Shown: in pieces, positions 45,354 through 63,856 of the stretch
How the letters are laid out: each line of letters begins with the position of its first letter
How positions within the stretch are numbered: the stretch's first letter is position 1
From: Acidobacteriota bacterium
GTDB lineage: Bacteria > Acidobacteriota > Vicinamibacteria > Vicinamibacterales > UBA2999
DNA: 64,000 bases
NCBI GenBank assembly: GCA_020851565.1
Contig: JADZCN010000006.1
Location: 1 to 64,000 of the forward strand
Reading direction: 5' to 3'
Notes under the pieces: model-generated
The model's input: the letters and a program-made list of their open reading frames with translations, nothing else
Told to the model about the DNA's origin: nothing
Database searches by the model: none
Position numbers and translations under genes: made by a program

Positions 45354-46066
45354 GGTCGCGCCTCTCGCGCCTGCCGATCGTGCCAGGCACGGCCGGCCTG
45401 CTCGAGGGCGGCCGGTGTCCCGATGTCCACGAGGAAATCGTCGATGACGTATCCCGCCATCCGGCCCACGAGCCGGGGCAGCACGTCGTGCCCGAAATCC
45501 ACGACGCCGGGCCGATCCGGGATGTAGTCGAACACCGACGGGCGGGCCAGGTAGACGCCGGCGTTGGCCAGGTCGCCCTGTGGGTGCTCCGGCTTCTCGT
45601 CGAAGGCCACGACGAGGCCGTCCCGGTCCAGCTGCACGATCCCCGCGGCGCGCGGATTCGGGGCATGGAACAGCCCCATCGTGAGGACGACGTCGTGCGC
45701 GTGATGCACGGCGGCCATCGGCGCCAGCCGCATGTCGGTGAGGTTGTCGGCGTAGAAGATCCAGAAGCTCTCTTCGCCCTGCGCGAACTCGCGGTGCTGG
45801 AAGACGGTCCGCGCGCTGCCGAGCGGCTCCGGCTCGGTGACCAGCGTCACGCGTGGGCCTGCGGCCCGCGCGTCGAGGAACCGCCGCACCTGCTCCTCGT
45901 GGTGAGAAACGTTCAGCAGCACGTCCGTCACGCCGTTGCGATGGCACAGCTCCAGCCAGAGCCCGAGGAGCGGAACGCCGTCGATGGGCACAAGGCACTT
46001 CGGGGTTGTGAGCGTGAGCGGCCGCAGGCGCTCGCCGCGCCCACCCGCGAGCAGATAGGCCTTCAC
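45350..46066 (-). CDS. hddC: D-glycero-alpha-D-manno-heptose-1-phosphate guanylyltransferase
   Basis: A sugar-nucleotide transferase of 238 residues with the pyrophosphorylase signature LLAGGRGERLRPLTLTTPKCLVPI, active-site Asp in FYADNLTD, and the DIGTP sugar-binding motif near the end. By context (HddA downstream, GmhA divergent) it loads GMP on heptose-1-phosphate; sequence alone could also fit a mannose or glucose enzyme. GTG 46066 is chosen because GGAGG lies six bases before. Divergent from gmhA across 205 bases. Confidence 0.83.
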   Translation of the reverse strand: MKAYLLAGGRGERLRPLTLTTPKCLVPIDGVPLLGLWLELCHRNGVTDVLLNVSHHEEQVRRFLDARAAGPRVTLVTEPEPLGSARTVFQHREFAQGEESFWIFYADNLTDMRLAPMAAVHHAHDVVLTMGLFHAPNPRAAGIVQLDRDGLVVAFDEKPEHPQGDLANAGVYLARPSVFDYIPDRPGVVDFGHDVLPRLVGRMAGYVIDDFLVDIGTPAALEQAGRAWHDRQAREARP

Positions 46067-46271
46067 CGGCGCCTCCGGGCCCTGATATCGTTCCGGGAAG
46101 AGAAAATAGGCTGCCGCTCGGTAGACTTCACCTCCCGGCGCGCCCACGGCCGCGCCGGACACCCCCCCTCTAAGAGGTGCCGTGGCAGCATGTTAGGGAG
46201 TGCGCTCCAATCCGACTGCATCTGGCGTTGACCATGCAATCCACCTGCCCGTTCGAGGGAGAGCGGAGCTC

Positions 46272-46883
46272 ATGCTGGACATCAGGCACTACGTGGACAC
46301 CTACGCGGGCGTCGTCCGCTCGCTGGACAGCGGCTCCATCGAAGCGCTGGCCGGCGTCATTGCCGAGGCGTGGCGCCAGCGGCGCACGGTCTATTTCTGC
46401 GGCAACGGCGGGAGCGCGGCCAATGCGGCCCACATCGCGGCGGATCTGACGAAGCTCACGGCTCCGGCCAGCGGCCCGCGCCTGCGCGCGGTGGCGCTCG
46501 GCGAAAGCCTGCCCGGCCTGACCGCCGCGGCCAACGACCTGGCCTACGAGCACATCTACGCCGAGCAGCTGAGGGGCTTCCTCGAGCCGGGCGACGTGGT
46601 GGTGGGCCTCAGCACCAGCGGCTCGTCGCCGAACGTGCTGCGGGCGCTCGAGCTCGCGGCCGAGGTGGGCGCCGTCACGGCCGGCGTCACGAGCACGAGC
46701 GGCGAAGCTCTTCAGGCGCGCGCCCGGCACGTGGTGCTGGTGCCGTCCGACAGCGTGCAGCACATCGAAGACGCCACCATGGTCACGGGCCACCTGCTCT
46801 GCCTGCTCGTGCGCGACCTCATCGCGCGCCAGATTCAGGCCTCGACCGCGCACCCGGTACGCCCGGCGGTCACGCCGGCATGA
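46272..46883 (+). CDS. gmhA: Sedoheptulose 7-phosphate isomerase
   Basis: A SIS-domain phosphoheptose isomerase, 203 residues. It converts sedoheptulose 7-phosphate to D-glycero-D-manno-heptose 7-phosphate in the cytoplasm. Motifs: FCGNGGSAANAAHIAADL (SIS phosphate loop with His), LSTSGSSPNVLRAL, and HIEDATMVTGHLLC carrying catalytic His and Glu. GCGGAG before the ATG fixes the start. Its stop overlaps galE as ATGA. It is divergent from hddC/hddA, which supply the next steps; gmhB phosphatase is not in the window. Confidence 0.92.
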   Translation: MLDIRHYVDTYAGVVRSLDSGSIEALAGVIAEAWRQRRTVYFCGNGGSAANAAHIAADLTKLTAPASGPRLRAVALGESLPGLTAAANDLAYEHIYAEQLRGFLEPGDVVVGLSTSGSSPNVLRALELAAEVGAVTAGVTSTSGEALQARARHVVLVPSDSVQHIEDATMVTGHLLCLLVRDLIARQIQASTAHPVRPAVTPA

Positions 46884-47857: not shown

Positions 47858-49124
47858 CAGGCGCCCGGCTGTCTCGCGCGTCCTCCATCACCGATTCGAG
47901 CCGGCGGATGTACTGATCCCACGAGTGGCGCTCCACCGCGTCGGCCCGGGCGCGCGTTCCGAGCGCGGCCCGCAGCGGACCATCGTCGATCAGCCGGCCG
48001 AATGCCGCCGACGTCGCCTGCGCGTCGCCGGGCGGCACCAGCAGGGCGTTGACGCCGTCCTGGAGCACGTCGCTCACCTGCCCCGCCGCCGACGCGACGA
48101 TGGCCACGCCGGAGGCCATGTACTCGAAGAGCTTGAGCGGCGACAGCCACACTTCCTGCGGCAGTCTCGGATAGGGCACGACCGCGATGTCCGCCGCCGC
48201 CATGTACTGCGGCACCTCCGCGTGCGCCACCAGGCCCGTGAAGTGCGCCACCGCACCCAGGCCGAGCGCCTGCGCGCGCTGCTCCATGGCCGCGCGGGTG
48301 GCGCCGTCACCGACGAGGACCAGCCGAACGGCACGATTGGCCTGCGCGAGCGGCGCCATCGCATTCAGGACCGTCTCGACGTCGTGCCACTCGTAGAAGT
48401 TGCCGACGAAGAGCACAACCGGGGCGCCTTCCGCGATCCCGAGTGCCGCGCGCACACGGTGCCGCGCGTCCGCGTCCGGGCGAAACGTTTTCGCATCGAC
48501 GCCGTTGGGCATCACCACCACGGCCTCCGGCCGAACGCCCCAGCGCGAGACGAGGTGCGCCTTCAGCGGTTCCGACACGCAGATCACGCGGTCGGCGGCT
48601 TCGAGATTGTGGCGGAACATCCGCCCGGCCCGCCACCGGAGCAGGCCGGTGATGGGCGTCCCCATCAGGTCGTGCTCGAGAATCTCGTCGGCTTCCACGA
48701 ACAGCACGTGCGGCACGCCCAGCTGCACCGAGGCGCGGGCGATACCGTCGCGGTAGAGCGCGCTCCGTTGATAGACCACGTCGTGGCCGGGCAGGCAGTG
48801 CAGGCAGGCGTCGTACAGCGACAGGTTGCTGAAGACGTTCAGGTAGGGAACGCCGAGCGCGCGCTGCACGCGCCAGGCGCCGCCGGCCAGCGTACGGAAC
48901 CAGGGCCGCGCGGACCAGGATCGCGGCGCGGGCGTCTCGACGCGCGGATCGGAGGTGCAGACCTCCTCGCCAAGCGCGCGTGGCGCGATGAACGTGAGGG
49001 CATGGCCGCGCTCGCGGAGGCGCGAGGCGACCAGGGCCTGGATCAGGTAGGTGGCGTTGGTGGGCGCGCCCGCGGTCGCCCGCTGGAACTCGCCGAGCTC
49101 GGGCGGGCAGAACGCGATGCGCAT
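47805..49124 (-). CDS. Glycosyltransferase family 4
   Basis: A 439-residue GT-B enzyme. N-terminal domain starts MRIAFCPPELGEF; C-terminal nucleotide-sugar domain has VVLFVGNFYEWHDVETVL and the EX7E-type block PQEVWLSPLKLFEYMASG. The start overlaps the upstream GT4 stop as TGATG. The C-terminal 18 residues (Arg/Gly/Thr-rich) overlap galE and are probably an extension. Last gene of the long glycan operon. Confidence 0.9.
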   Translation of the reverse strand: MRIAFCPPELGEFQRATAGAPTNATYLIQALVASRLRERGHALTFIAPRALGEEVCTSDPRVETPAPRSWSARPWFRTLAGGAWRVQRALGVPYLNVFSNLSLYDACLHCLPGHDVVYQRSALYRDGIARASVQLGVPHVLFVEADEILEHDLMGTPITGLLRWRAGRMFRHNLEAADRVICVSEPLKAHLVSRWGVRPEAVVVMPNGVDAKTFRPDADARHRVRAALGIAEGAPVVLFVGNFYEWHDVETVLNAMAPLAQANRAVRLVLVGDGATRAAMEQRAQALGLGAVAHFTGLVAHAEVPQYMAAADIAVVPYPRLPQEVWLSPLKLFEYMASGVAIVASAAGQVSDVLQDGVNALLVPPGDAQATSAAFGRLIDDGPLRAALGTRARADAVERHSWDQYIRRLESVMEDARDSRAPATRGSRAGGAGATPRPT

Positions 49125-50419
49125 CAGGTGTTGATGGCCTGCTGGTAGGCCCGGACGAAGGTCTCGCACACCGTCGCCGGCGAGAAGCGCCCCTTCTCGT
49201 ACGATGCCCGTGCCGCGCGGCCGAGCCGATCGCGAAGCGCCGGGTCATCGATCATCACGCGGATGGCCTCGGCCAGCGCCGCGGCATCACCGGGGGGGCA
49301 CAGCAGGCCGTTCACGCGGTCCTGGATCAGCTCCGGGATACCGCCGACGGTGGTGGTGACGATCGGGCAGCCGTGCGCCATGGCCTCGATGAGCGCGAGC
49401 GGCTGGCCCTCGAGGATCGACGACATCACGAACACGTCGTTCTCACCGAGGATGCGCGTCAGCGACGCCCGATCCGTGAAGGCGTGCTGGAAGATCTCGT
49501 GCCCGTCGAGGCCGCGCGCGGCCGCCTCCGCCAGCAGCTCGTCCCGGAGCGGCCCATCGCCGTATACCGTGAATGCCGTGTCGGGGTGCGTTCGGCGCAC
49601 CTCCACGATGGCGTCGAGCAGGTGCACGAGCCCCTTGGTGACGTAGAGTCGCGCCAGCGTGACCATGCGTACCGGTCCCTGCCCTGCCGGGCGAGCGGGA
49701 CGCCGCCATCCCGAGGCCATCGGGTCCGGCATGATCGGCTCGCTGGCAACGATGGGGCGCGTCACGCCCGCGATCTGCCGCAGCTTGTTCGCGCTGATGT
49801 CGGAGGCGGCGACCACGAGGTTCGCCTTGTTGACGATGCGATCGAAGCCCTTCCACCAGTCGAACTGGGCGTCAGGGGTCTGGTGCTCCTGGTACGCCAC
49901 CGGCAGCCCGTGTGCGTGCGACCACTCGATCGCGAAGAGCAGGTTCGAGGTGTAGCCGTGCATGTGCACGACATCGGGCCGCCAGCGGAAGCGCCACCAC
50001 CGCAGCATCGCGCGCCCGAGCGCGGGGCTCCGGTTGGGGCCCACCATCCGCGTCATGACCTGCCGCCGCAGCCAGCCGTGGGCGCTCCCCAGCGCGGCGG
50101 ACCAGCCCTGCCCGCGGCCGAGCATCAGGCCGAGCGCCGCCACCCAGGTCACCGGCGCAAGCACGGTCATCAGGGCTGCGAGCACGCGCTCCTTGGTGTG
50201 CCAGTGGGCCGCCAGGTCGGAGATCCAGCGGGGCGGCTGTGCCAGGGGAATGCCGGCCGCCCGAATCCGCTGCGCATACTGGTTCTCCGGGGGGATGTAG
50301 TGCACCGACAGGACGCTCACGTCGTGTCCGGCCCGCCGCAGCCCTGTCGCCAGGTTGATGGCGTACTCCTCGAGCCCGCCGAAGTCCTGGACGTCGTACA
50401 TCAACATGCACACTCGCAT
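49124..50419 (-). CDS. Glycosyltransferase family 4
   Basis: A 431-residue GT-B enzyme: DFGGLEEYAINLATGL acceptor loop, PDVVHMHGYTSNLL, AYQEHQTPDAQFDW, RMVTLARLYVTKGLVHLLDAI and the EX7E motif EGQPLALIEAMAHGCP. A hydrophobic patch near 85-105 could attach it to the membrane. Both ends overlap neighbours as TGATG. Confidence 0.92.
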   Translation of the reverse strand: MRVCMLMYDVQDFGGLEEYAINLATGLRRAGHDVSVLSVHYIPPENQYAQRIRAAGIPLAQPPRWISDLAAHWHTKERVLAALMTVLAPVTWVAALGLMLGRGQGWSAALGSAHGWLRRQVMTRMVGPNRSPALGRAMLRWWRFRWRPDVVHMHGYTSNLLFAIEWSHAHGLPVAYQEHQTPDAQFDWWKGFDRIVNKANLVVAASDISANKLRQIAGVTRPIVASEPIMPDPMASGWRRPARPAGQGPVRMVTLARLYVTKGLVHLLDAIVEVRRTHPDTAFTVYGDGPLRDELLAEAAARGLDGHEIFQHAFTDRASLTRILGENDVFVMSSILEGQPLALIEAMAHGCPIVTTTVGGIPELIQDRVNGLLCPPGDAAALAEAIRVMIDDPALRDRLGRAARASYEKGRFSPATVCETFVRAYQQAINT

Positions 50420-51873
50420 CACGCGCTCCCGTGGCCCTCGAGGCCGCCGCCGGCCGGGGGCGGGCCGCCCCCGACGAGCGATCGCAGCAGGATCGACTGC
50501 ACGCCGCGGTTGGCCAGCAGCGACGGCGTGTGCCGAACCGCCTCGACGACCCGACCGGGGACGGCGGCTCGCCGGTTCGCCCGGTAATCGCGGAACGCGC
50601 GGTTGATGGCGACCGATCCGCGCAACTGCCGCGCGGACGCGCCGCCGCTGACGCGCGACACGGCCGCGCCGAGGCGATGGACGGCCTCGTCCGCCGCCCC
50701 CTCGCCGAACTCCTGCTCGTAGCTCAACACCTGCGTGGTCAGCATCTGGATGAGCGTCGTGTCCACCCCGGCACCCAGCCGGGCGGCGGCGCCGCAGTGC
50801 TCCGCTCCTTCTGCCAGGCGTCCCCACAAGGCGTGCCGGACCCCGCGCAGCAGGTGCCCGCGCGCCACCGCCCACGCGCGGTGTGCCGACAAGTCGGCCT
50901 CCGTCGGCAGCTGGGCGAAGATGACGTCGAGCACGCGCTCGTGATCCAGGTTCTCGTCCGCAATGCTCTCCGAGAGCAGATAGGTGAGCAGCTCCGGATG
51001 CTCCCCCTGGAGCATCGTCGGATCCATGCGCACGAGGCGGCGCACCGAGTGCTGGGCGAGTGCGGTCTCCTCCTGCCGGAGTGACAGCGACACGATGTCC
51101 ATGAGATGGACCTTCAGCGCGGTGTCGCGCGCGGCTCGCACGTGATCGGGACACCGCGGGTCGGCGAACACCGCCTCGAGCACCCCGCTCACGTCCGCCA
51201 GGCGTCCCGCCAGGTTCCGCCGGCCTCGGCCCGAGTGATAGCGCCGGTAGTTGAGCGCGCGGTCCACGCTGGCGAACCGGCAGCCCGCCAGGGCCATGCG
51301 ACACGGCAGGTCGGTGTCCTCCGCCGATCCGCGCGCCGGGTCGAAGAGGCCCGCCGTGAACGGCCACTCGCGCCGCATCACCACCTCGCTGGGGCAGAAC
51401 GGGAACCACCTCACGAGGTCCAGCAGGTCCACCGCCAGGGGCGGCCGGAACAGGTCACGAATCGTCGTCTGCGAGTGGTTCCACTCGAAGCGGGCGCTGT
51501 AGGTGAACCCCACCGCTGGGTTGGCCCGCAGGAAGGCCACGTGCGCTTCCAGCTTCTCCGGGTGATACACGTCGTCGGCATCGAGCCAGGCGATCAGCTC
51601 GCCCCGGGCGGCACGCATGCCGGTGTTGCGCGACTCGGGAAGCCCGCGGTTGGTGTCGTGGCGGATGTAGACCAGGCGCGGGTCGTCGAAGGTCGCGATG
51701 ACCTCCGGCGTCTCGTCTGGCGACGCATCGTCCACGACGATCGCCTCCAGGTGCGGCCACGTCTGCGCGAAGACGCTCCGGAGCGTCTCGGCGAGGAACG
51801 CAGCCTGCCTGAAAGAGGGGATGACCACGCTGACGAGCGGGTCCTCGACCACTGGCAGCGGTGACATGGTCAT
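50419..51873 (-). CDS. Glycosyltransferase family 2 with helical C-terminal extension
   Basis: A 484-residue protein. Residues 10-230 are a GT2 domain: VSVVIPSFRQAAFLAETLRS, VVDDASPDET, RGLPESRNTGMRAA, and AWLDADD as the DxD motif. The remaining 250 residues are alpha-helical and resemble the tails of other GT2 proteins in polysaccharide loci, for example the one at 59344; their role is unknown. Start overlaps the Wzm-like stop as TGATG. Confidence 0.9.
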   Translation of the reverse strand: MTMSPLPVVEDPLVSVVIPSFRQAAFLAETLRSVFAQTWPHLEAIVVDDASPDETPEVIATFDDPRLVYIRHDTNRGLPESRNTGMRAARGELIAWLDADDVYHPEKLEAHVAFLRANPAVGFTYSARFEWNHSQTTIRDLFRPPLAVDLLDLVRWFPFCPSEVVMRREWPFTAGLFDPARGSAEDTDLPCRMALAGCRFASVDRALNYRRYHSGRGRRNLAGRLADVSGVLEAVFADPRCPDHVRAARDTALKVHLMDIVSLSLRQEETALAQHSVRRLVRMDPTMLQGEHPELLTYLLSESIADENLDHERVLDVIFAQLPTEADLSAHRAWAVARGHLLRGVRHALWGRLAEGAEHCGAAARLGAGVDTTLIQMLTTQVLSYEQEFGEGAADEAVHRLGAAVSRVSGGASARQLRGSVAINRAFRDYRANRRAAVPGRVVEAVRHTPSLLANRGVQSILLRSLVGGGPPPAGGGLEGHGSA

Positions 51874-52697
51874 CAAATCACGTCGGCCAGGCGACCCTCG
51901 ACGCGCCTGAAGAAGGCGTATCCGGCTGCGAGGGCCACCACAGCCATGGCCGCCGCCGCCGCGAGCTCGGGCCCGGGCGCGCGCGCGAGGAGCAGAACGT
52001 CGCGAAGTGCGTCGATGACGCCCGCCACGGGATTGGCGTAGTAGAGCCACCGCCACTCGTCCGGCACGAGCGCCGTGGGATAGATGATGGGCGAGGCATA
52101 GAACCACAGCTGGGTGAGCAGCTTGATGGCGGGATCCACGTCGCGGTAGAAAACGTTCAGGGCCGACGAGGCCAGGCCAAGACCAAGCGTGAAGGTCACG
52201 AGCACCGCAACGATGACCGGCACCCACAGCCACTGCACCGTGACCGGCATCCCGTAGGCGACCACGAGCGCGAGGAGAAGAACCATGCCGATGCCGAAAT
52301 CCACGGCCCGCGCGACGAGGGCGGCGGCGGGCAGCGCGGCCCTCGGGAATGCAATCTTGGTCACCAGATTCAGGTTGGCCACGAGCGATCCCGCCATATC
52401 GGCCCACGCGTTGGCCAGCAGCGTCCACGGCACCGTTGCCGTGTAGGCGAAGAGCACGTAGGGGATGCCTCCGGTCTCGATGCGGACGAACCGCGTGAAG
52501 ACCACGGTGAAGATTGCCACCATCGCCACCGGCTGCACGACGGCCCACGCCCAGCCGAACGCCGACTGCTGGTAGCGCGCACGCAGGGTTCGCGCGGCCC
52601 ACGCCCGGGTGACGTCCAGCGCCACCATCGCGGGGGAGGCGGGCGCGCGGTTCCGTGCCACGGCGGCCGGGCTTGCGGCGGCTGGCATGTCAGCCAC
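51873..52697 (-). CDS. wzm: ABC-2 polysaccharide export permease
   Basis: The membrane subunit of an O-antigen/teichoic-acid-type exporter, 274 residues and six helices. Typical blocks: LRARYQQSAFGWAWAVVQP, LNVFYRDVDPAIKLLTQLWFYASPIIYP and YYANPVAGVIDALRD. It moves lipid-linked glycan across the inner membrane with the ATPase encoded just upstream. GTG 52697 overlaps that gene's stop; ATG 52688 is an alternative. Confidence 0.92.
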   Translation of the reverse strand: MADMPAAASPAAVARNRAPASPAMVALDVTRAWAARTLRARYQQSAFGWAWAVVQPVAMVAIFTVVFTRFVRIETGGIPYVLFAYTATVPWTLLANAWADMAGSLVANLNLVTKIAFPRAALPAAALVARAVDFGIGMVLLLALVVAYGMPVTVQWLWVPVIVAVLVTFTLGLGLASSALNVFYRDVDPAIKLLTQLWFYASPIIYPTALVPDEWRWLYYANPVAGVIDALRDVLLLARAPGPELAAAAAMAVVALAAGYAFFRRVEGRLADVI

Positions 52698-53967
52698 GCT
52701 CCCCTGCCGGGCCGGGCTTGGCTCCCACCGGCGCCGCCCCCTCGGCGGCAGCCGGCCTGGTCAGCCACGCATGGTCCGGCTCGAACACCCCATCGTGGTG
52801 ATCGATACCGGCGGTCCGCCCCTGCACCTCGAACCAGTCCGACGTCGCGCGGCTCATCCCGTTGGCGTCGCTGGCGTCAAGGAACCAGACCACGGCGTAG
52901 TACGAGCCGGGGAACAGTCGCGTGGCGTCGATGGTCACTGCCACCGTTCCGGTCCCACGGTCGAACCTCACGGGCACGCCGTCCTGGCTCGTGCGAAGCA
53001 CGAAGCACGACAGCCCGTCCGAGCGCATCATGCGGACCAGCACGTTGGCTTTCGGCACGTCGGTGTACGCGGTGTAGGAGATGCGCACCTGCACCGGCTC
53101 GGCGCTCGTGACCGCGCGCACCGGGCCGCCATCGCCGGCGAGCACCTCCACGCGTCCGATCTCGACGATGCCGTGATCGCCGGGCGAGCCCGCTTGCTGC
53201 TGCAGCTTTGCCAGGCGCCGCTGGTCGAGTACGCGATTGTAGTGATCGATCGTCTCGCCGGTGTCGCCGGCGTGCCGGATGGCACCGTCCTCGATGTAGA
53301 GGGCCTCCTGGCATACGGCCTTCACGAGGCCCATGTCGTGCGAGACGAAGAGCAGGCTCGTGCCGGCCGACCGCAGGTCCTGAATCCGCGCCACGCATCG
53401 CTGGCGGAAGGCCGCGTCGCCTACGGCCAGCACTTCGTCCACGAGCAGGACGTCGGGCTCGATGCAGGAGGCCACGGCGAATCCCAACCGCACCGTCATG
53501 CCCGACGAGTAGCGCTTGATCGGCGTGTCGATGAAGCGCTCGAGCTCGGCGAACGCGACGATCTCGTCGAAGCGCGCCCGCACCTCGTGCCGTGGCAGCC
53601 CCAGCAGCGTGGCATTGAGGAACACGTTCTCGCGGCCGGTCAGGTCGGGATGGAACCCGGCGCCGAGCTCGATGAGCGCGGCCAGGCGGCCGCTCGACTC
53701 CACCTCGCCGCTCGTGGGCTCGGTGATGCCGGCCAGGAGCTTGAGGATGGTCGACTTGCCGGCACCATTCGGGCCGAGGAGCCCGAGCGATCGGCCCGCT
53801 TCGAGCGAGAACGACACATCCCGGAGTGCCCAGTAGACGTCATCCGCTCCACGGCTGCCGTTCCACGCGTGGCGCAGGCTTCGCCACGCCGCCGCGGCCA
53901 CGCTCGTGCGCGTGAGACCGAGGTGGTACTTCTTCGAGACGTGCGAGAAGCGGACGGCGTGATCCAC
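52690..53967 (-). CDS. wzt: ABC exporter ATPase with carbohydrate-binding C-terminal domain
   Basis: The ATPase subunit, 425 residues. Nucleotide-binding domain 1-245: Walker A GPNGAGKST, signature YSSGMTVRLGF, Walker B VLLVDEVLAVGD, and switch His in FVSHD. Residues 290-425 are a Wzt-type beta-sandwich that in other systems binds the end of the glycan chain (SYTAYTDVPKANVLVRM, PGSYYAVVWFLDASD). GTG 53967 lies 23 bases after the stop of the upstream paralogue; no better start is available. Confidence 0.92.
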   Translation of the reverse strand: MDHAVRFSHVSKKYHLGLTRTSVAAAAWRSLRHAWNGSRGADDVYWALRDVSFSLEAGRSLGLLGPNGAGKSTILKLLAGITEPTSGEVESSGRLAALIELGAGFHPDLTGRENVFLNATLLGLPRHEVRARFDEIVAFAELERFIDTPIKRYSSGMTVRLGFAVASCIEPDVLLVDEVLAVGDAAFRQRCVARIQDLRSAGTSLLFVSHDMGLVKAVCQEALYIEDGAIRHAGDTGETIDHYNRVLDQRRLAKLQQQAGSPGDHGIVEIGRVEVLAGDGGPVRAVTSAEPVQVRISYTAYTDVPKANVLVRMMRSDGLSCFVLRTSQDGVPVRFDRGTGTVAVTIDATRLFPGSYYAVVWFLDASDANGMSRATSDWFEVQGRTAGIDHHDGVFEPDHAWLTRPAAAEGAAPVGAKPGPAGERG

Positions 53968-53990: not shown

Positions 53991-55817
53991 TCAGGAGTCC
54001 AACAGGCGATACGCCAGCGCCTGCACGGACTGCAGGCGCCGGAGCGCGCGGTAATCCCTGGCGTCGGACGTCGCCCGATCGTACAGCGGCTGCAGCCACC
54101 TGGTGTCGAGCCAATCCGAGAGCTCTCGCTCGGCCTCCGGGATGGGCCATAACCCGGCGGGGCCTGCGGCCCTGAGCGCGTCGCAGTCCATGCGCGGGTC
54201 GGCGGCGGCGAACACCTTCAGGGGCCCCTTGTGCAACGACGCCGGTACCGCCGCGGCCATCCTCCGCTTCAGCAGGTAGCGGCCTGTGCGGAGCATCGGC
54301 TCGTCGTCGTATGTTCCGGGGATGGCGGCCACCTTCGGATAGAACCGGCGGAACACGTCGCGGAGAAGCGCCCGGTTGTCGCGCGCCCCTCTCGGGAGCG
54401 ACAGGCAGAAGCGGGCGTACGCGCGGTTCATGAACGGCGACGCCGAGCCGCGCCAGTAGTCGGCGAGCACGAGCTGGAACGCCGTGAACAGGCGGTTCCG
54501 GTTGCGGAGCCCGATGCCCAGGTCGTGCTTGAAGTAGACATCGCCTGACGCGGCCACCTCCTCGTCGATCGTCGTGGCCAGCTCGGCGAGCGCCTCGTCC
54601 ACCGGCACGCGCAGGACATCACGGAGCTCGTCGATCGTCCAGTGCCGGTACCATTCGCTGTACAGCTGCCCGAGCGACGCGATCACCTGCCGGGAGCCGC
54701 TCGTGCCGCTGAGGATGTCGTTGAGGAAGCCGGACGCCACCGGACGGCCGCTCACGGGGGCCACGGCATCGTAGAACGCCATCTGGTACATGCCGTGGAA
54801 ATGCATGGAGCTGCCGAACCACTCGGCCCACGGACGCGTGTAGGTCGCCAGGTAGGCGCGCCCCAGGTCAACGTGCGTCCAGGGCATGCCGAGCGTCCGT
54901 GCCACGGCGCGGCTCCCGATGACGTCCATCGTGTCGGATGAGCCCCAGGCGTACGCGGCGAGGTCCGCCTGGAGATCGGTCCCGATGCACGCGAGAAGCC
55001 GCGAATCGAGCCCACCGGAGAGCGGGAGCATCCACGCCGGCTCCGAGTGGAGTGTCGCTCGCACCGCAGCGGTGGCGAGCGCATGCATCTCGTCGACGAG
55101 ATCGTCCCACCTCGTCTCCCAGCGATCGCGGCTCGGCGATACGCTCCCGAGCGACCGGCTCCGGAAGGCCCCATCCCACCTGCTCACCGAGTCCGGCGGC
55201 AGCGTCCGCATACCGTTGAACAGCGTCCAATCCGCCAGCAGGTGGCCGTTCAGCAGGATGCAGAGGAGCGCGGCGTGCCGGATGTCCCCGCGGGTGTAGC
55301 CCATCGCGGCCACCACGGCCGGCTCGAGGGTGCCTGCGACGGTCCCAGGCGGTCCATCCGCGTGGAACACGGTGATCGCCCCCATCCAGTCGTTCCAGAT
55401 GGTCCAGCGCTCACCGTCCGCGCTGATGCGCAGCAGGACGACGCGCCCCTCCCAGGGCAGTTCGGCGTCGGCCTCCGCGTCCCCGTCCAGGAACGCCCTG
55501 GGCAGGTCGGTCCACGAGACCGTCCCGTGGGGCGCTCCCACCAGGGCCAGCAGCGAACCGTCCGGGCAGTGGTGCAACCGCGTCTCGAGCGCTCCGGGTC
55601 CCCACACGTCGAGTGTGGTCCGGCCCATCACGATCGCGTGAGCGCGCAGGTGGCCGAAACGCCCGAGGACACGTGCCTGGGCCTTGCGCGCGGCGACCAG
55701 GGCCCCGGGCGAGGAGCCGCGGTAGACCATGAAGCCGACGATGGCCCCCCGTGCGCGCATGGCCGTCGGGCCAGCTTCGCTCCCCGCCGGAATCACGTGC
55801 GGCGTCGACTCAGGCAT
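53991..55817 (-). CDS. Asparagine-synthetase-like protein 1, glutaminase-dead
   Basis: A 608-residue protein with the two-domain plan of asparagine synthetase B. The N-terminal Ntn half (about 20-215) has WNDWMGAITVFHAD but no Cys at the N-terminus, so it cannot hydrolyse glutamine by the usual route. The ATP-pyrophosphatase half has the PP loop LSGGLDSR near 265-272 and a downstream HVDLGRAYL block. Probably activates a carboxylate with ATP and uses ammonia or an amine; the target may be a sugar acid or glycan. Start overlaps the paralogue's stop by 8 bases. Confidence 0.85.
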   Translation of the reverse strand: MPESTPHVIPAGSEAGPTAMRARGAIVGFMVYRGSSPGALVAARKAQARVLGRFGHLRAHAIVMGRTTLDVWGPGALETRLHHCPDGSLLALVGAPHGTVSWTDLPRAFLDGDAEADAELPWEGRVVLLRISADGERWTIWNDWMGAITVFHADGPPGTVAGTLEPAVVAAMGYTRGDIRHAALLCILLNGHLLADWTLFNGMRTLPPDSVSRWDGAFRSRSLGSVSPSRDRWETRWDDLVDEMHALATAAVRATLHSEPAWMLPLSGGLDSRLLACIGTDLQADLAAYAWGSSDTMDVIGSRAVARTLGMPWTHVDLGRAYLATYTRPWAEWFGSSMHFHGMYQMAFYDAVAPVSGRPVASGFLNDILSGTSGSRQVIASLGQLYSEWYRHWTIDELRDVLRVPVDEALAELATTIDEEVAASGDVYFKHDLGIGLRNRNRLFTAFQLVLADYWRGSASPFMNRAYARFCLSLPRGARDNRALLRDVFRRFYPKVAAIPGTYDDEPMLRTGRYLLKRRMAAAVPASLHKGPLKVFAAADPRMDCDALRAAGPAGLWPIPEAERELSDWLDTRWLQPLYDRATSDARDYRALRRLQSVQALAYRLLDS

Positions 55818-57570
55818 CGATCAGTCGATAGGCCAGCGTCTGCACCGATTGCAGGCGGCGAAGCGCGCGATAGTCCTTGGCCGGCGAGACCGCGCGGTCG
55901 TACAGCGGCCCGAGTTGCTTCACGTCGAGCCATTCGGCCAGCGCGTGCTCGGCCTGCGGTATCGGCCACAGGGCGGCCGGCCCCGAGGCGCGCAGGGCGT
56001 CGCAGTCCATGCGGGGATGCACGCCCGAGAAGACGCTCAGCGGGCCCTTGCGCCAGGAACGAGGCAGCATCAGCGCAACGCGCCGGCTCACGAGGTAGCT
56101 CCCGGTCCGCAGCATCGGCTCCTGTCCGTACGTGCCGGGGATGGCCGCCACCGTCGGATAGAAGGTGCGGAACACCTCGCGCAACAGGCGGCGATCGTCC
56201 ACCGCCACGAGTGGCAGGGAGAAACAGAACCGGGCAAACGCCCTGTTCAGGAAGGGCACCGCGACGCCGCGCCAGTAATCCGCCAGCGTCACCTGGAACC
56301 CGGCGAACAGCGGGCAGCGGTTCCAGATCTCGATGGCCATGTCCTGCTGGAACCCGGCGCCACCCCTGGCCGACAGCTGGACCTCTATCTCGTGCGACAG
56401 CTCATCGAGCGCATCGTCGAGGGGAACGCACAGCAGGCGCCGCAACTCGTCAATCGTCCAATGGCCGTACCACTCGTCGTACAACTGGCCTCGCGCGGGC
56501 ACCGTCTCGCGCCCTCCGACGCCGCACAGCACGTCGTTCAGGAACCCCGAAACGACCGGGCGGGTATCCGACCGGGCCGATGCGTCATAGAAGGCCATCT
56601 GGTACATGCCGTGAACGTGCATCGTGCTCCCGAACCACTCAGCCCAGGGGCGCGTGAACCTGTCGAGATAGTCGGTGCCCAGATCGACGTGCGTCCACGG
56701 CAGGTCCAGCTTGCGCGCCACAGCGCGGCTGCACACGACGTCGATGGTGTCCGCGGATCCCCACGCGCACGTCCGAAGGTCGACGCCGAGACCACGGGCG
56801 ATGCAGGCGATGAGGCGGGAGTCGAGCCCGCCCGAGAGCGGCAGTGTCCATGCCGGCCCAGCGGCCAACGCCTGGGCCACGGCCCGCGTCTGCAGGGCGT
56901 GCATCTCCTCGACGAGGTCTACCCAGCGCGTCTCCCACCTGTCCGTGGTGGGAACGACGGTGTGCAGGATCCGCTGCCGGAAATCCTCGTCCCATGTCGA
57001 CACCGCATCGGGCAGCAGCGCCCGCATGTCGCGGTAGAACGTCCAGTCCGACAGCAGGTGGCCGTTGATCAGGATGCAGAGCAGCGAGGCGATCCGGATG
57101 TCATGCGGCGTGTAGCCCATGGCCGCGACGACGGCGGGCTCGAGCGTGCTGGCGACGAGGCCTTTCGGCCCCCGCGCATGGAACACGGGGATGGCACCCA
57201 GCCAGTCGTTGCAGAGGACCCATCGCTCGCCGTCCGCGCTGACGCGCAAAAGCAAAGCGCGGCCCTCCCACGGCAGGCCGTTCAGTGCGGCATCGTCGCC
57301 ATCGAGGAATGCGGGCGGCAGATCAGTCCAGGACACCGGAGGCTGCGGCCGCCCCACGAGCACGAGCCACGAGCCATCCGGCGCACGGTGCAGCCAGCGC
57401 TCGACCTCGCCCGCGCCCCAGATGTCGATCGTCGTCGAGCCCACGGTCAACGATCGCGTGGCGAGGTGCGGGAAGCGCGAGACGACGCGTGCCTGCGCGG
57501 TGCGCGCCGCACGGAAGGCTTCCTCCGAAGCGTGACGCCAGGCCGTGAAGCCGATGATGGCAGCCTGCAT
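55810..57570 (-). CDS. Asparagine-synthetase-like protein 2, glutaminase-dead
   Basis: A 586-residue paralogue of its neighbours. It starts MQAAIIGFTAW, with no Cys2, then has CNDWLGAIPVFHA in the Ntn-like half and the PP loop SGGLDSR at 246-252. Shared blocks include RPWAEWFGSTMHVHGMYQMA, SGFLNDVLCG and the C-terminal RALRRLQSVQTLAYRL. The start is one base after the stop of paralogue 3. It belongs to the central part of the glycan operon. Confidence 0.85.
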   Translation of the reverse strand: MQAAIIGFTAWRHASEEAFRAARTAQARVVSRFPHLATRSLTVGSTTIDIWGAGEVERWLHRAPDGSWLVLVGRPQPPVSWTDLPPAFLDGDDAALNGLPWEGRALLLRVSADGERWVLCNDWLGAIPVFHARGPKGLVASTLEPAVVAAMGYTPHDIRIASLLCILINGHLLSDWTFYRDMRALLPDAVSTWDEDFRQRILHTVVPTTDRWETRWVDLVEEMHALQTRAVAQALAAGPAWTLPLSGGLDSRLIACIARGLGVDLRTCAWGSADTIDVVCSRAVARKLDLPWTHVDLGTDYLDRFTRPWAEWFGSTMHVHGMYQMAFYDASARSDTRPVVSGFLNDVLCGVGGRETVPARGQLYDEWYGHWTIDELRRLLCVPLDDALDELSHEIEVQLSARGGAGFQQDMAIEIWNRCPLFAGFQVTLADYWRGVAVPFLNRAFARFCFSLPLVAVDDRRLLREVFRTFYPTVAAIPGTYGQEPMLRTGSYLVSRRVALMLPRSWRKGPLSVFSGVHPRMDCDALRASGPAALWPIPQAEHALAEWLDVKQLGPLYDRAVSPAKDYRALRRLQSVQTLAYRLIDA

Positions 57571-57571
57571 G

Positions 57572-59347
57572 TCAGGAGCCGATCAGGCGATACGCCAGCG
57601 TCTGCACCGACTGCAGGCGGCGAAGCGTGCGGTAATCCTTGTCGTCCGACACCGTCCGCTCGTACAGCGGCTGGATGTGGCTCACGTCCATCCAGTCCGA
57701 CAGCGCGCGCTCGGCCTCCGGAATGGGCCAGAGCCCGTCACGTCCCGCGTGCCGCAAGGCATCACAGTCCATCCGCGGGTCCACGGCGCCGAACATCTTG
57801 AACGGTCCGACTCGCCAGGCCGGTGGCAACGCCTCCGCGATGCGCCGGGCCAGCAGGTAGCGCCCCGTGCGCAGCAGCGGCTCATCCCCGTAGGTCCCCG
57901 GCACCGCAGCGACAGCCGGATAGCGCCGCTTGATGACCTCGCGCAGCAGCGCCTTCCCGTCCAGCGCCACCCGCGGGAGCGACAGCCAGAATCGTGCATA
58001 GGCGCGATTCATGAACGGCGTGGCTGCGCCCCTCCAGTAATCCGCGAGCGTGAGCTGGAAGCTCGTGAACAGCGGGCACCGGTTCCGGATCTCGAGCAGT
58101 GCGTCGCGCTGGTACTCCGCACCAGGTGGTTCGCGGAACTGCGCCTCGATCTCCGACTCCAGCTCCGCCAGCGCATCGTCCAGCGGAACCCGCATCACCG
58201 CCCGCAGTTCCTCGATCGTCCAGTGGCCGTACCACTCGTTGTACAGCTGGCCGCGTGCGGGCTCGATCTGCCGCCCCGAGCCCCCGCACAGCACGTCGTT
58301 GAGGAACCCCGAGGCGATCGGACGCGCGTCAAACGGCGCAACGGCGTCGTAGAACGCCATCTGATACATGCCGTGGACGTGCATCGAGCTGCCGAACCAC
58401 TCCGTCCAGGGCCGCGTCCACTTTGCCAGGTAGCCGGTCCCCAGGTCCACGTGCCGCCACGGCAGGTCCAGCGAGCGGGCCACCTGGCGGCTGCACACCA
58501 CGTCCACGGTGTCGGCGGCACCCCACGCGCAGGTCGTCACGTCCGCGCCGAGGTCGCGGCTCACTGAGGCGAGGAGTCGGGAGTCGAGCCCACCAGAGAG
58601 CGGCAGCATCCATGACGGCTCCGCGGCCAACGCACCCGCAATCGCACGCGTGGCGAGCGCATGCGCCTCGTCGACCAGGTCGTCCCAGCGCGACTCCCAG
58701 CGGTCTCGCGTGGGCCCAACGGTGCCGACGATGCGATGGCGATAGGCGGGATCCCACACGGCCACTGAATCGGCCGGAATCGTCCGCATGCTGCGGAAGA
58801 ACGTCCAGTCCGAGAGCAGGTGGCCGTTGATCAGGATGCAGAGGAGCGAGGCGAGTCTGATGTCGGCCGGGCCATATCCCGTGGCCGCGACAACCGCAGG
58901 CTCCAGCGTGCTCGCCACGCGGCCCGCTGCCCCACCCGCGTGAAAGACCGGGATGGCCCCCAGCCAGTCGTTCCAGAGCGTCCACTGCTCGCCGTCCGGA
59001 GCGATTCGGAGCAGAACGACGCGGCCCTCCCAGGGCAGCTCCACGTCTGCCGACGGGTTGCCCTCGAGGTACGCAGACGGCAGCTCGTCCCACGAAACGG
59101 GCGGCTGCGGTGCTCCGACGAGCACGAGCAGCGAGCCGTCAGCCGTCCGATGCAGGCACGCATCCGGCGCCCCCGGCCCCCAGATATCCAGTGTCGTCGC
59201 CCCGACGACAATCGAGCGGGTGGTCAGCCGGGCGAACCGGTCGGTCACGCGCCGCCGGGCCGCCCGCGCCGCCTCGACCGCACCGGACGAGGCCCCGTGC
59301 CAGGCCGTGAAACCGATGACGGCGCCACGCGCCGGCGCGTCGCTCAT
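57572..59347 (-). CDS. Asparagine-synthetase-like protein 3, glutaminase-dead
   Basis: A 591-residue paralogue. The N-terminus MSDAPARGAVIGFTAW lacks the glutaminase Cys; the Ntn-like half has WNDWLGAIPVFHAG; the PP loop LSGGLDSR is near 255-262. Closest by eye to paralogue 2. The start overlaps the GT2 stop (ATGA). Three such copies in tandem suggest either different acceptors or a multi-subunit enzyme. Confidence 0.85.
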   Translation of the reverse strand: MSDAPARGAVIGFTAWHGASSGAVEAARAARRRVTDRFARLTTRSIVVGATTLDIWGPGAPDACLHRTADGSLLVLVGAPQPPVSWDELPSAYLEGNPSADVELPWEGRVVLLRIAPDGEQWTLWNDWLGAIPVFHAGGAAGRVASTLEPAVVAATGYGPADIRLASLLCILINGHLLSDWTFFRSMRTIPADSVAVWDPAYRHRIVGTVGPTRDRWESRWDDLVDEAHALATRAIAGALAAEPSWMLPLSGGLDSRLLASVSRDLGADVTTCAWGAADTVDVVCSRQVARSLDLPWRHVDLGTGYLAKWTRPWTEWFGSSMHVHGMYQMAFYDAVAPFDARPIASGFLNDVLCGGSGRQIEPARGQLYNEWYGHWTIEELRAVMRVPLDDALAELESEIEAQFREPPGAEYQRDALLEIRNRCPLFTSFQLTLADYWRGAATPFMNRAYARFWLSLPRVALDGKALLREVIKRRYPAVAAVPGTYGDEPLLRTGRYLLARRIAEALPPAWRVGPFKMFGAVDPRMDCDALRHAGRDGLWPIPEAERALSDWMDVSHIQPLYERTVSDDKDYRTLRRLQSVQTLAYRLIGS

Positions 59348-60549
59348 GCCCCCGCGGCCCCGGCCCGCGCCGCGGCGCGTCCGGGCAGCCATCCCCGCAC
59401 GAACGACTTCACGAGGTCACCCACGACGAGCGTGTCGCCCCAGAGACGCGCGTCGCGCACCAGCGCCCTCGTAAGAAACCGCCGGCTCATCGCGTAGTGG
59501 CCTGCGTTGTACGCCACCAGTCCAAGTGCCTTGTACGCGGTGCCCGCGCCGCGCGCGCGCGTGCCCCGGTCTTCGAGGCTGCCGAGCACCGATTCGATGG
59601 CGTCCGTGAACGGGCGCACGTGCTCGGTCAACGGTGCGGCAGCCGCGCCCCGATACCCTACGGGCTGGCCCGCCAGGGCCAGGTCGTAGAAGAGGTCGAG
59701 ATCCTCCGCCAGGGTCGGGTCGATCTCGAGCGCCGTGCGCAGGAAACCGGCGGCCTTCGTCCAGTCCATCTGACGCTGCACCGTGGAGATGGCGCAGTAC
59801 CGGTACAGCCCGCCGAAGGCGCGCCGCTTCTCCGGGGGCCACGCCTCGCGCGGCTCGTCCCCAGCGCCGAATCGCTTCTCGATCACCGTGCGCGCCCAGC
59901 GCTGCATCGCCTGCGGATCCCCGGACAGGCTGGAGCCGTGCACGCGGTAGTCCACCAGGCATGCATCGTGGCCGACGATGGCGTGCTCCGGGAGCAGGCG
60001 CAGCCAGAGATCCCAGTCCTCGCACGACCTGAGGCCCGCATCGAAGAGCCCCGCGGCCATCACCACCTCCCGTCGCAGTACGACGGTGCTCGGGATGATG
60101 AAGTTCGCCCGCAGCAGCCGCTGGAAGAGCTCTCCCGCAGGCACTGGCGGGCCGCCCAGCACCTGCGGCAGCGGTGTGCCGCGCTCGTCCATGGTCTGCG
60201 CGCGGCAGTAGTACGCGGCCGCGCCCGGATTCGCATCCGCGACGCGCGTCATCTCCGCGCAGAACTGCGGGCGCCATCGGTCGTCGGCGTCGAGCAGCCC
60301 CACCAGCTCCCCTCCAGCCGCGCGGATACCGGTGTTTCGCGCGGCCGCCAGGCCCTGGTTCTCCTGATACAGATACCGCACGCGCTCGCCGTACGTGCGG
60401 ACCGCCGCTTCACACCCGTCGGTCGATCCATCGTCCACCACGATGATCTCGCCGGGCGGCTCGGTCTGGTCGAGCACGCTCTGAATCGCCCCGTCCAGGT
60501 AGCGGGTGTGGTTGAAGTCCGGGATGATGACGCTCAGGCGCGCAGCCAT
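59344..60549 (-). CDS. Glycosyltransferase family 2 with C-terminal extension
   Basis: A 401-residue GT2 enzyme: LSVIIPDFNHTRYLDGAIQ, IIVVDDGSTDG, NQGLAAARNTGIRAA and LLDADD (DxD). The acceptor part has GLRSCEDWDLWLRLLPEH. Residues 250-401 are helical, resembling the tail of the GT2 at 50419. It lies 6 bases from the upstream GT4 and overlaps the downstream paralogue gene. Confidence 0.9.
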   Translation of the reverse strand: MAARLSVIIPDFNHTRYLDGAIQSVLDQTEPPGEIIVVDDGSTDGCEAAVRTYGERVRYLYQENQGLAAARNTGIRAAGGELVGLLDADDRWRPQFCAEMTRVADANPGAAAYYCRAQTMDERGTPLPQVLGGPPVPAGELFQRLLRANFIIPSTVVLRREVVMAAGLFDAGLRSCEDWDLWLRLLPEHAIVGHDACLVDYRVHGSSLSGDPQAMQRWARTVIEKRFGAGDEPREAWPPEKRRAFGGLYRYCAISTVQRQMDWTKAAGFLRTALEIDPTLAEDLDLFYDLALAGQPVGYRGAAAAPLTEHVRPFTDAIESVLGSLEDRGTRARGAGTAYKALGLVAYNAGHYAMSRRFLTRALVRDARLWGDTLVVGDLVKSFVRGWLPGRAAARAGAAGA

Positions 60550-60555
60550 GGCGGA

Positions 60556-61887
60556 TCAGCGAAGGGATGCGTAGATGGCGCCGAGCTCGTCGGCGTTGGC
60601 CTGGACCGTCTTCACGGGAGGAATGCCCTTCCGCAGCTCGTCCACGATGGAGGGCTCACGCACGAGGCGCGCGAGATGGGTGGCCAGCATCGCGGCATCA
60701 CCCGGCTCGAAGAGAAAGCCGTTCACCCCATCTTTCACGGCCTCGGCCATGCCGCCGAGGTTGGTAGCGACGACTGGTGCGCCGGCGGCCAGGGCGTCCT
60801 GGATGACGAGCGGGAAGTCGTACCAGAGCGACGGCACCACGAGCACGTCGAACGTGGCCATGACCGACGCGCGCTCCTCACGCTGGAATGTGCCCATGAA
60901 CCGGACCGGAAGGCCGTGCGCCTGCTCGATCACCTGCTGCCCGTACTCCGGCGACTGGCGCACGCTGCCATAGACCACGAGCTCGATGCGAGACCGCAGG
61001 TCGTCGGGCACACGCCGCAGGGCGTCGAGCAGCACGTGCAGCCCCTTCGCCGGGATGATCTGCCCCACGAACCCGACGCGGAGGACGTCCGAGGCCGTGC
61101 GGCCCGCGAACGCCGAGAGCCACGACACGTCGTTGCCATAGGCCGAGACCTCGATGGGCGCGGTGACGCCGTTGGCCATGTAGGTCTGGCGGACGAACGG
61201 CGACGCGGTCAGCCTGACCTGCGGCCACTCGATAGCGCGCAGCAGGAAGGCCTTGCGCGCGTCCATGTCGCCAATCATCCCGCGCAGCCCCGGCTGGCGC
61301 GCCAGCACGGGCTGCCGTCCGACGGCCGTGAGCAGGCCCGCGACCGCGCGTTCCGGCAGCAGGGCGCTGGGCCACCGGTATGCCTTGCTCCCTCGTGACA
61401 GGCACTTCGTGCACTCCCAGGCGGTCGTCTGGCCGTCGCATGTCCGCATGTCGCTGCGCAGGAGTGTCATGCGGGGGCAGATGAACCAGAAGTCGGTCAG
61501 CGTGAGGACCAGCGGCAGGGCGCGCTCGCGCGTGACACGCAGCACGCTGGCCGAGAGGGTCTCGCACGACGTGACGTGGACGACGTCCGGCCGCCACTCG
61601 TCGAGCCAGCGGCCGTAGAGGCTCGCGGTGACGGGATTGTCGAACAGCCACGTGAACGGATCATCCCCCCGCGTCCAGTTCAGGTTCAGCCGGCGGACCG
61701 GGATCCCCTCGTAGGTGGAGTCCTCGTACCCGTTGAAGTACGCCTCGCCGTTGTCCCACGCGCCCACGCAGAGCACCTGCACGCTCTCGCCGCGGCCGTG
61801 GAACTCCCGGGCGATGGCCGCCGTGTAGGCCTCGGTGCCCGCCCAGCGATGCGGCGGGAATCCATTGGTGACGTAGAGCACCTTCAT
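60556..61887 (-). CDS. Glycosyltransferase family 4 with Cys cluster
   Basis: A 443-residue GT-B enzyme: MKVLYVTNGFPPHRWAGTE start, PDVVHVTSCETLS, RVGFVGQIIPAKGLHVLLDAL, and the EX7E-like region SLWYDFPLVIQDALAAG. A cysteine set in the middle (FICPRMTLL, TCDG, ECTKCLSRG) is typical of a subgroup of GT4 enzymes and may bind metal. ATG 61887 overlaps the upstream GT2 stop (ATGA). Confidence 0.92.
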   Translation of the reverse strand: MKVLYVTNGFPPHRWAGTEAYTAAIAREFHGRGESVQVLCVGAWDNGEAYFNGYEDSTYEGIPVRRLNLNWTRGDDPFTWLFDNPVTASLYGRWLDEWRPDVVHVTSCETLSASVLRVTRERALPLVLTLTDFWFICPRMTLLRSDMRTCDGQTTAWECTKCLSRGSKAYRWPSALLPERAVAGLLTAVGRQPVLARQPGLRGMIGDMDARKAFLLRAIEWPQVRLTASPFVRQTYMANGVTAPIEVSAYGNDVSWLSAFAGRTASDVLRVGFVGQIIPAKGLHVLLDALRRVPDDLRSRIELVVYGSVRQSPEYGQQVIEQAHGLPVRFMGTFQREERASVMATFDVLVVPSLWYDFPLVIQDALAAGAPVVATNLGGMAEAVKDGVNGFLFEPGDAAMLATHLARLVREPSIVDELRKGIPPVKTVQANADELGAIYASLR

Positions 61888-62786
61888 GCGGGCATCCGTC
61901 CGGTTCGCCCCCTCGCAAAGTCCACCAGGCCGCGCCACATCGCGTCACGGTGATCCCGCTTCTGCCGCCACTTCGGGCGGATGCTCCAGCTGGCGAGCGT
62001 CCTCAGGATCTGCGCCCAGGCGACGACCTTCGCCGGAAAAGGCGCGTGCTGGATGGAGAGCATCAGCAGGCGGTTGCGGGTGCTGTAGTAGGTGACCGAG
62101 GGTTTCGGCCGGTAGTCGCGCTGCACGCCCTTGTGCCAGACGCGGGCCGCGGGTGCCACGACGAGGCGCCAGCCGGCGCGCCCCGCGCGGACGCACCATT
62201 CCGTCTCTTCCCAGTAGATGAAGAAGCGCTCGTCGATGCCGCCGATCGCCTCGATCACCGCACGCCGCACCAGGATGGCGCAACCGGAGATCCACTGGAC
62301 GTCCCTGGGCGCGGCGAACTGACCACGGTCCAGCTCGTTCTGCCCCCAGTGGAAGCCTTCCCACCAGCGCGTCAGTCCGCCACCCGCCGACTGGATGACA
62401 CCCGGCTCGTCGTGGTGGTACACGATCGGCCCGACCACCCCGATGCGCGGGTCGCTCTCGCCGACCTGCACCATCGCTTCGAGGCAGTGCGGGTCGAGCA
62501 CCACGTCCTCGTTGAGGACGCACACCCAGTCGGCGCCCGTGTCCAGCGCGCGCTGGATGCCGACGTTGTTGTTGCCCGCATACCCGCGGTTCTCCTCGAG
62601 CTCGATGAGCTCGACGCCCGGGAATCGCGCGCGCACCGCGTCCGGCGATCCATCCGTGGACTGGCAGTCGAGCACGATGATACGGACGTTCGGGCAGGTG
62701 CCAGCCTCGAGCGAGGCGAGGCATTCCAGCGTGTCCTCGCGGCGGTTGCTGTTGAGGACCACGCAGGCGACGAGCGGGAGGGACAC
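61884..62786 (-). CDS. Glycosyltransferase family 2
   Basis: A 300-residue GT2 enzyme: VACVVLNSNRREDTLECLAS, IIVLDCQSTDGSPD, ENRGYAGNNNVGIQ and VLNEDVVLD (DxD position), with FIYWEETEWCVRAGRAGW on the acceptor side and a basic C-terminus. The GTG at 62786 is chosen because the domain begins two codons later; no strong Shine-Dalgarno is seen, so the start is uncertain by a few codons. Confidence 0.87.
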   Translation of the reverse strand: MSLPLVACVVLNSNRREDTLECLASLEAGTCPNVRIIVLDCQSTDGSPDAVRARFPGVELIELEENRGYAGNNNVGIQRALDTGADWVCVLNEDVVLDPHCLEAMVQVGESDPRIGVVGPIVYHHDEPGVIQSAGGGLTRWWEGFHWGQNELDRGQFAAPRDVQWISGCAILVRRAVIEAIGGIDERFFIYWEETEWCVRAGRAGWRLVVAPAARVWHKGVQRDYRPKPSVTYYSTRNRLLMLSIQHAPFPAKVVAWAQILRTLASWSIRPKWRQKRDHRDAMWRGLVDFARGRTGRMPA

Positions 62787-62830
62787 GGATGGTGTCAGGA
62801 AGTCGGACCCGGAACGCGAGACGGACGTGC

Positions 62831-63856
62831 CTACTGGCGGACGGTCGCTCCGCGCTCCACGGCCAGGGGCACGGCACCGAGCAGGCCGTAGGCCAGCGTC
62901 TTGGCGGTGCTGCCGGGCACGAAGATGATGTCGTTCGGCTGGATCGAAACCTCGGGCTTCCTGCCCTCGAAGACGGCCTTGATGTCCACGGGCATCTCGA
63001 GGCGGCGACCGGACTCGTCGAACCGGACGACGATGGCCTTGGCCAGCTTCGCCGTGCGCATCGGCCCGCCAGCCTTGGCAATGGCCTGGCTGCTCAGCAG
63101 CGTCGGCGGGTCCGGGAACTCGTACGCGCCGGGCTGGTTCACGTCGCCGACGACGAAGAAATGCTCCTTGCGCCGTTGCGGGACGTAGAGGACGTCGCCG
63201 CCGCGCAGCTTGACGTTGAGGTCCGGGCGGTTCCCCTCGTTGAGCGCGCGGAAGTCGATCTCGACGGCTTCGTCCGCGGCACTGGCGTCGGCGGCGCCGC
63301 CATTGGTGCCGTTGGTGGCCGCGGCACCGTCCGAACGGCGGCGATAGAGATAGCCGACCGGCGTCGCGACGTCGTTGAATCCGCCCGCGAGCGTGATGAG
63401 GTCGATGAGGTACATCTCGTCGCGGATGACGAACTGCCCGGGGTCCATCACCTCGCCCAGGATGTAGACGGGCTGCGCACGATACTGCTGGATGCTCACG
63501 CCCACCCACGGGTCCTTGACCAGCCCCTCGGTCCGCAGGCGTTCCGCGAGGTGGCGCTCGAGCCCGGAGGGCGTCATGTCGGCGACCTTGATCACACCCA
63601 GGAACGGCACGTGGATCTTGCCCGTATTGCTGACCCGAACGGTCTGCTCGAACTGCTTGATGTTCGAGACGGCGATGGAGAGCAGGTCCCCGGGGCCGAT
63701 GCGATAGCCGGGCTCGGTGCCCGCGGGCGCAGGCGCTGCCGCGCTCGTCGCGGAGGCCGCGGGAGCGGCTTCCTGCGCGTAGGACGGGGTCGCGAGCACG
63801 ACGGACAGGCCCAGCACCAGGGCTGGCAGCACTCGACGGGAAATCGGGGTGGTCAT
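62831..63856 (-). CDS. Polysaccharide export protein (Wza/OPX family, SLBB domains)
   Basis: A 341-residue periplasmic protein. Signal peptide 1-27 (ends SYAQ), Ala/Pro-rich linker, then the polysaccharide export domain YRIGPGDLLSIAVSNIKQFEQTV and SLBB-type blocks (YILGEVMDPGQF near 130; FFVVGDVNQPGAYEF near 235). No lipobox Cys and no C-terminal amphipathic helix typical of Wza, so it may be a shorter OPX protein needing a separate outer-membrane partner. The C-terminus IIFVPGSTAKTLAYG is shared with the next gene. Confidence 0.9.
   Translation of the reverse strand: MTTPISRRVLPALVLGLSVVLATPSYAQEAAPAASATSAAAPAPAGTEPGYRIGPGDLLSIAVSNIKQFEQTVRVSNTGKIHVPFLGVIKVADMTPSGLERHLAERLRTEGLVKDPWVGVSIQQYRAQPVYILGEVMDPGQFVIRDEMYLIDLITLAGGFNDVATPVGYLYRRRSDGAAATNGTNGGAADASAADEAVEIDFRALNEGNRPDLNVKLRGGDVLYVPQRRKEHFFVVGDVNQPGAYEFPDPPTLLSSQAIAKAGGPMRTAKLAKAIVVRFDESGRRLEMPVDIKAVFEGRKPEVSIQPNDIIFVPGSTAKTLAYGLLGAVPLAVERGATVRQ

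Follow-up and report, generated by a model that had tools for sequence, protein, structure and literature searches.

Three tandem asparagine-synthetase (AsnB)-like genes (B1–B3), lying between a glycosyltransferase gene and a Wzt/Wzm-type polysaccharide exporter, encode paralogues that have kept the PP-loop and lost the glutamine site. On balance, their products are probably ATP-dependent amide ligases that work without glutamine and decorate the exported glycan. The window, i.e., the whole stretch of DNA analysed (64,000 nucleotides from an Acidobacteriota bacterium), belongs to a contig of 92.8 kb in a genome of 6.06 Mb (171 contigs). The coordinates of the features are collated in Table 1.

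Table 1. The AsnB-like genes and their exporter and glycosyltransferase neighbours in the window.
Feature	Coordinates	Strand	Basis
GT4 glycosyltransferase, common to L018 and G004	49124..50446	-	PF00534; 54% identity
GT2, kept beside Wzm in relatives	50419..51876	-	PF00535; 54–57% identical to relatives
Wzm-like ABC permease	51873..52697	-	KpsM/Wzm models, under equivalog cut-offs; 47–59% identical to relatives' Wzm
Wzt-like ABC ATPase, C-terminal Wzt_C domain	52690..53967	-	PF00005 and PF14524; GTG start 53967 by reading
B1, third AsnB-like gene	53991..55817	-	608 aa; ORF, PF00733 29.9 bits, AF2 model, Foldseek
B2, second AsnB-like gene	55810..57570	-	586 aa; ORF, PF00733 33.8 bits
B3, first of three AsnB-like genes	57572..59347	-	ORF, family alignment, AF2 model, Foldseek
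GT2 directly upstream of B3	59344..60549	-	PF00535
GT4 glycosyltransferase	60556..61938	-	PF00534/PF13692
GT2 glycosyltransferase, start approximate	61884..62830	-	PF00535 in frame; NCBIfam
Outer-membrane polysaccharide export protein (Poly_export/SLBB)	62831..63856	-	PF02563, PF10531

All three genes are intact and in frame, share 64–67% pairwise identity, and are translationally coupled through ATGA, 1-base and overlapping junctions. The B3 frame is open to 59392 (57572–59392, 606 aa as listed); its true start is probably the ATG at 59347, which overlaps the stop of the upstream GT2 gene as ATGA. The ATG of B2 sits 1 base past the B3 stop, and the start of B1 overlaps the B2 stop, an inner ATG at 55760 being a possible alternative. 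Such a tandem of full-length, in-frame, coupled paralogues is far beyond chance. Because dN/dS among the copies is about 0.27–0.31 (pairwise dN 0.26–0.29, dS 0.83–1.08), they are under constraint rather than decayed. A sequence-only reading of this DNA had described three tandem, glutaminase-dead paralogues within an exporter/glycosyltransferase operon, and each part of that description was borne out: the SGGLDSR loop (as LSGGLDSR) is present in every copy, Cys and glutamine pocket are lost family-wide, and GT2, GT4, export proteins, Wzt and Wzm surround the genes. Its concern that the genes might be decayed copies is excluded for the window by the dN/dS values and holds for one Chloroflexota relative, in which the first of two tandem copies (copy a, L020:6676–8324) is broken by a deletion of ~35 codons and a frameshift, or by an assembly error.

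The PP-loop motif SxGxDS, the Mg-binding Asp and the predicted overall fold place B1–B3 in the Asn_synthase fold superfamily (PF00733). The Pfam model covers only the PP-loop part of each protein, with scores over the curated cut-off for B1 and B2 and under it for B3 (the gene at 57572). AF2 models were obtained for B1 (pLDDT 87.7, confident) and B3 and were compared with known structures by Foldseek. Full-length matches to the complete two-domain asparagine-synthetase architecture were returned, so that the Ntn-like half, for which structure prediction had been proposed, is present in a confidently predicted fold. The top match for both models was the hydroxyamidotransferase TsnB9 (PDB 7ylz; E 8e-18, TM 0.68), and beta-lactam synthetase was also among the best. 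TsnB9, the closest fold, differs from the window proteins in its DSS-type PP-loop (as aligned), its identity of 14–15% and its natural-product setting. A PDB sequence search with one single protein gave no relative, whereas a profile search did find relatives. Profile and fold searches together assign the proteins, complete with both domains, to the AsnB/beta-lactam-synthetase superfamily. Among the NCBIfam models, B1–B3 scored 20.8–33.7 bits with TIGR01536 (AsnB; cut-off 267.1 bits), two copies scored 18–24 bits with the lasso peptide cyclase model NF033535 (cut-off 525 bits; third copy without a match), and TIGR03108 (WbpS/WbqG) was absent among the matches of B1–B3 with E up to 1.

AsnB begins with MCGIxGF, and the roles of its Cys, Glu, Lys and Mg-binding Asp are established. 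In an active-site alignment of family members with 13 canonical AsnB proteins from the retrieved loci, the nucleophilic Cys was missing at the aligned position in 14 of 14 family copies. The three window starts read AVIGF, AIIGF and AIVGF, with no Cys near any of them, and the glutamine-pocket motifs RLxIIDL, NGEIYN and SDTE of AsnB are replaced in every family member listed in the alignment. The whole glutaminase site appears to be gone across the whole family, and the glutaminase-dead reading is strengthened because the loss takes in the entire glutamine pocket. A nucleophilic Cys hidden at a processed N-terminus, named beforehand as evidence to the contrary, was looked for at the starts and rejected, none being in register; in L047, a GTG lying upstream in the same frame would add a Cys at residue 2, which is four residues off register. 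Across the family, SxGLDSR never varies, and neither does the Asp that aligns with the Mg ligand. Activity of B1–B3 is nevertheless not assured, since the catalytic Glu of the canonical GEGxDE is F/Y/L in the family, which also has no conserved Lys at the position of the catalytic Lys of AsnB. B1–B3 share a Gly-to-Asn change beside the Mg Asp, and B2 and B3 have further changes in common, which is consistent with specialisation of the copies; their divergence would fit separate acceptors and would also fit drift.

When loci were read by pattern (a sample rather than a census), DSR-type proteins with a readable start lacked MCG and DSS-type proteins carried it; the window family would therefore be part of a wider glutaminase-dead set. 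DSR-type glutaminase-dead AsnB-like proteins occur in several of the glycan loci examined here. Literature searches found no direct description of a glutaminase-dead AsnB-like glycan enzyme, and no paper assigning a substrate to a DSR-type protein of this kind.

In beta-lactam synthetase and carbapenam synthetase, the acyl group is transferred to an amine of the substrate. The best reading of B1–B3 is that their mode of action would resemble that of beta-lactam synthetase, not that of the uronamide synthetase WbpS. The glutaminase half, without Cys and glutamine pocket, would be kept merely as a scaffold, and the synthetase half would use ATP, bound at the PP-loop, to adenylate a carboxylate. 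As there is no glutaminase, the nitrogen donor is likely free ammonia or an amine carried by the substrate, to which the activated carboxylate would be passed. The result would be an amide group added to the sugar polymer that the neighbouring Wzm/Wzt exports. Catalysis, a glycan substrate and action before export are what we infer. The likeness to beta-lactam and carbapenam synthetase (PDB 1jgt/1mbz, 1q15/1q19) lies in the two-domain fold, the functionless glutaminase half and the PP-loop ATP chemistry; B1–B3 differ in being only ~15% identical, in their glycan locus and in their three copies. The Tyr of the Tyr-Glu dyad of those enzymes aligns, by reading, with F in the window and F/Y/L in the family.

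The assignment to a glycan is the best reading because of the exporter linkage, and recurrent linkage to one exporter type supports the role on the glycan that the sequence-only reading had suggested. The ABC domain (PF00005, 80.3 bits) and the C-terminal Wzt_C domain (PF14524, 34.9 bits), both over cut-off, identify the putative Wzt ABC exporter ATPase. A second Poly_export/SLBB gene (contig C6, 63878–64981) stands back to back with the one in Table 1, and the locus also has Wzc-like, Wzy_C-type and ABC exporter genes. GHMP kinase, nucleotidyltransferase and SIS genes lie at 44367–46883, as in D-glycero-D-manno-heptose synthesis; these heptose-type genes are the only clue to the sugar.

The family is rare. 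High-scoring members were found in the window genome (three copies), in G004 of the same genus (one copy) and in the Anaerolineae (Chloroflexota) genomes G426, G427, G428, G429, G430, G431 and G709. Apart from G004, no same-genus relative carries the family; the G004 copy is only 46–48% identical to B1–B3, so the locus varies within the genus. A scan of 396 genomes from the window's phylum gave one other match, a distant one (G283, 92 bits); in an Anaerolineae sample of 396 genomes, four carry the family. Family genes are near neighbours of Wzt/Wzm, at most a few genes away, in the window, in G004 and in six Chloroflexota genomes. Five of the seven Anaerolineae genomes have the family in one syntenic exporter locus, with tandem pairs in two. 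The order in L018, L020, L021 and L023 is radical SAM, Wzy/TPR, two BNR proteins, AsnB-like (one or two copies), Wzt and Wzm, the last followed by a matching GT2 (clear in all but one); the AsnB-like gene adjoins Wzt directly or via a GT2 and an ATP-grasp-type gene. The short contig L019 covers the Wzy/TPR, BNR, AsnB-like and Wzt portion of this order. L022 departs from it (BNR-type, Wzt, AsnB-like, Wzm, GT2). The window and G004 have radical SAM, Wzt, Wzm, GT2 and GT4 genes in common with the Chloroflexota loci. The two BNR-repeat secreted-type proteins (L018:3778–7991), kept beside the Chloroflexota exporter, are absent from the window contig.

The following observations also count against ligases acting on a glycan. 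The exporter locus of G709 (L098) has no family gene, and its two copies lie elsewhere among unrelated, non-glycan neighbours; many Anaerolineae genomes have a similar, high-scoring Wzm and no family gene; and a search of the window's contig gave no homologue of uronate dehydrogenase. A strict one-to-one pairing of the family with the Wzm subtype, perfect among 59 relatives, failed in Anaerolineae. In favour of a glycan role, homologous exporter loci in L101 (G707), L102 (G733) and L103 (G683), in which the BNR protein directly adjoins Wzt, carry WbqC-like and DegT-like (sugar-modification-type) genes beyond GT2. L105 (G634) has no family member at the exporter and, farther on, ATP-grasp-type, DegT-like and canonical DSS-type AsnB genes; the 7 kb contig L104 (G765) carries WbqC-like and DegT-like genes and one divergent DSR-type gene. 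The names WbqC and DegT are readings of the sequences without a family search. These arrangements suggest a variable modification slot in the exporter locus.

There is a precedent for the ligase reading in AsnB-family enzymes that modify surface-glycan sugars: WbpS, WbqG and PGN_1234 (the TIGR03108 group) have the AsnB fold, stand in surface-glycan loci and are described as amidotransferases, and knock-out showed PGN_1234 to be needed for a glucuronamide (PMC7468200). B1–B3 might likewise be primary-amide (uronamide) synthetases supplied with ammonia that is free or from a separate glutaminase; the AsnB-type PesC can take ammonia in place of glutamine (PMC13060819), and a UDP-sugar dehydrogenase gene lies near the L022 gene. 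This is nonetheless unlikely: every member has lost the glutamine pocket, the TIGR03108 match is absent, and, besides the lack of a uronate dehydrogenase homologue on the window contig, the gene-lacking exporter loci L107 and L108 also carry one. Less probable again is a non-catalytic role, in which B1–B3 would bind ATP and serve as scaffolds for, or regulate, glycan assembly or export, as the unconserved Glu and Lys and the position of the L022 copy between Wzt and Wzm might indicate; PP-loop and Mg Asp are invariant family-wide under purifying selection, and the PP-loop Arg of all DSR-type members may, speculatively, stand in for the lost charge. Lactam or macrolactam formation on peptides or small molecules, with an incidental glycan linkage, has weak similarity to macrolactam and lasso cyclases and the non-glycan setting of the G709 copies in its favour, and is very improbable given scores far under curated cut-offs (30 vs 300 bits, 24 vs 525) and an exporter linkage that recurs in two phyla.

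A narrower form of the amide-ligase reading is a long shot: the amide might cap the growing end of the glycan and be read by the Wzt C-terminal domain as an export signal, the three paralogues making alternative caps. The Wzt_C domain of Aquifex reads a chemical cap (PMC9445017), and the window transporter likewise has Wzt_C; caps described for Wzm/Wzt exporters are methyl, phosphate or Kdo, not amides, so that an amide cap, if real, would be a new chemical class. Mean Wzt_C identity is 46% among gene-carrying genomes against 35% to loci without the gene (phylogeny uncontrolled), which may be a weak hint of such a cap; the ATPase half shifts likewise (72 vs 67%), and the G709 Wzt groups with gene-lacking loci.

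B1–B3 group together in a clade of their own (100/100), separate from the tandem pairs of Chloroflexota and from the G709 pair, a result that rules out inheritance of the triplet from those tandem pairs. The triplet is a lineage-specific expansion; elsewhere the gene occurs in one or two copies. As the clades are separate, copies have multiplied at least three times. The triplet and its relatives with one, two, relocated or no copies offer a natural comparison for the amide chemistry of surface polysaccharides. The tandem copies of L021 (7995–11527) are 100% identical in DNA over codons 120–200 and 46–51% identical in parts of the C-terminal half, a pattern expected from gene conversion. The radical SAM protein of the window genome (G000 contig C6, 76528–78276; L083:14531–16276) is 63–73% identical to the versions in Chloroflexota exporter loci, which is unusually high for a cross-phylum comparison.
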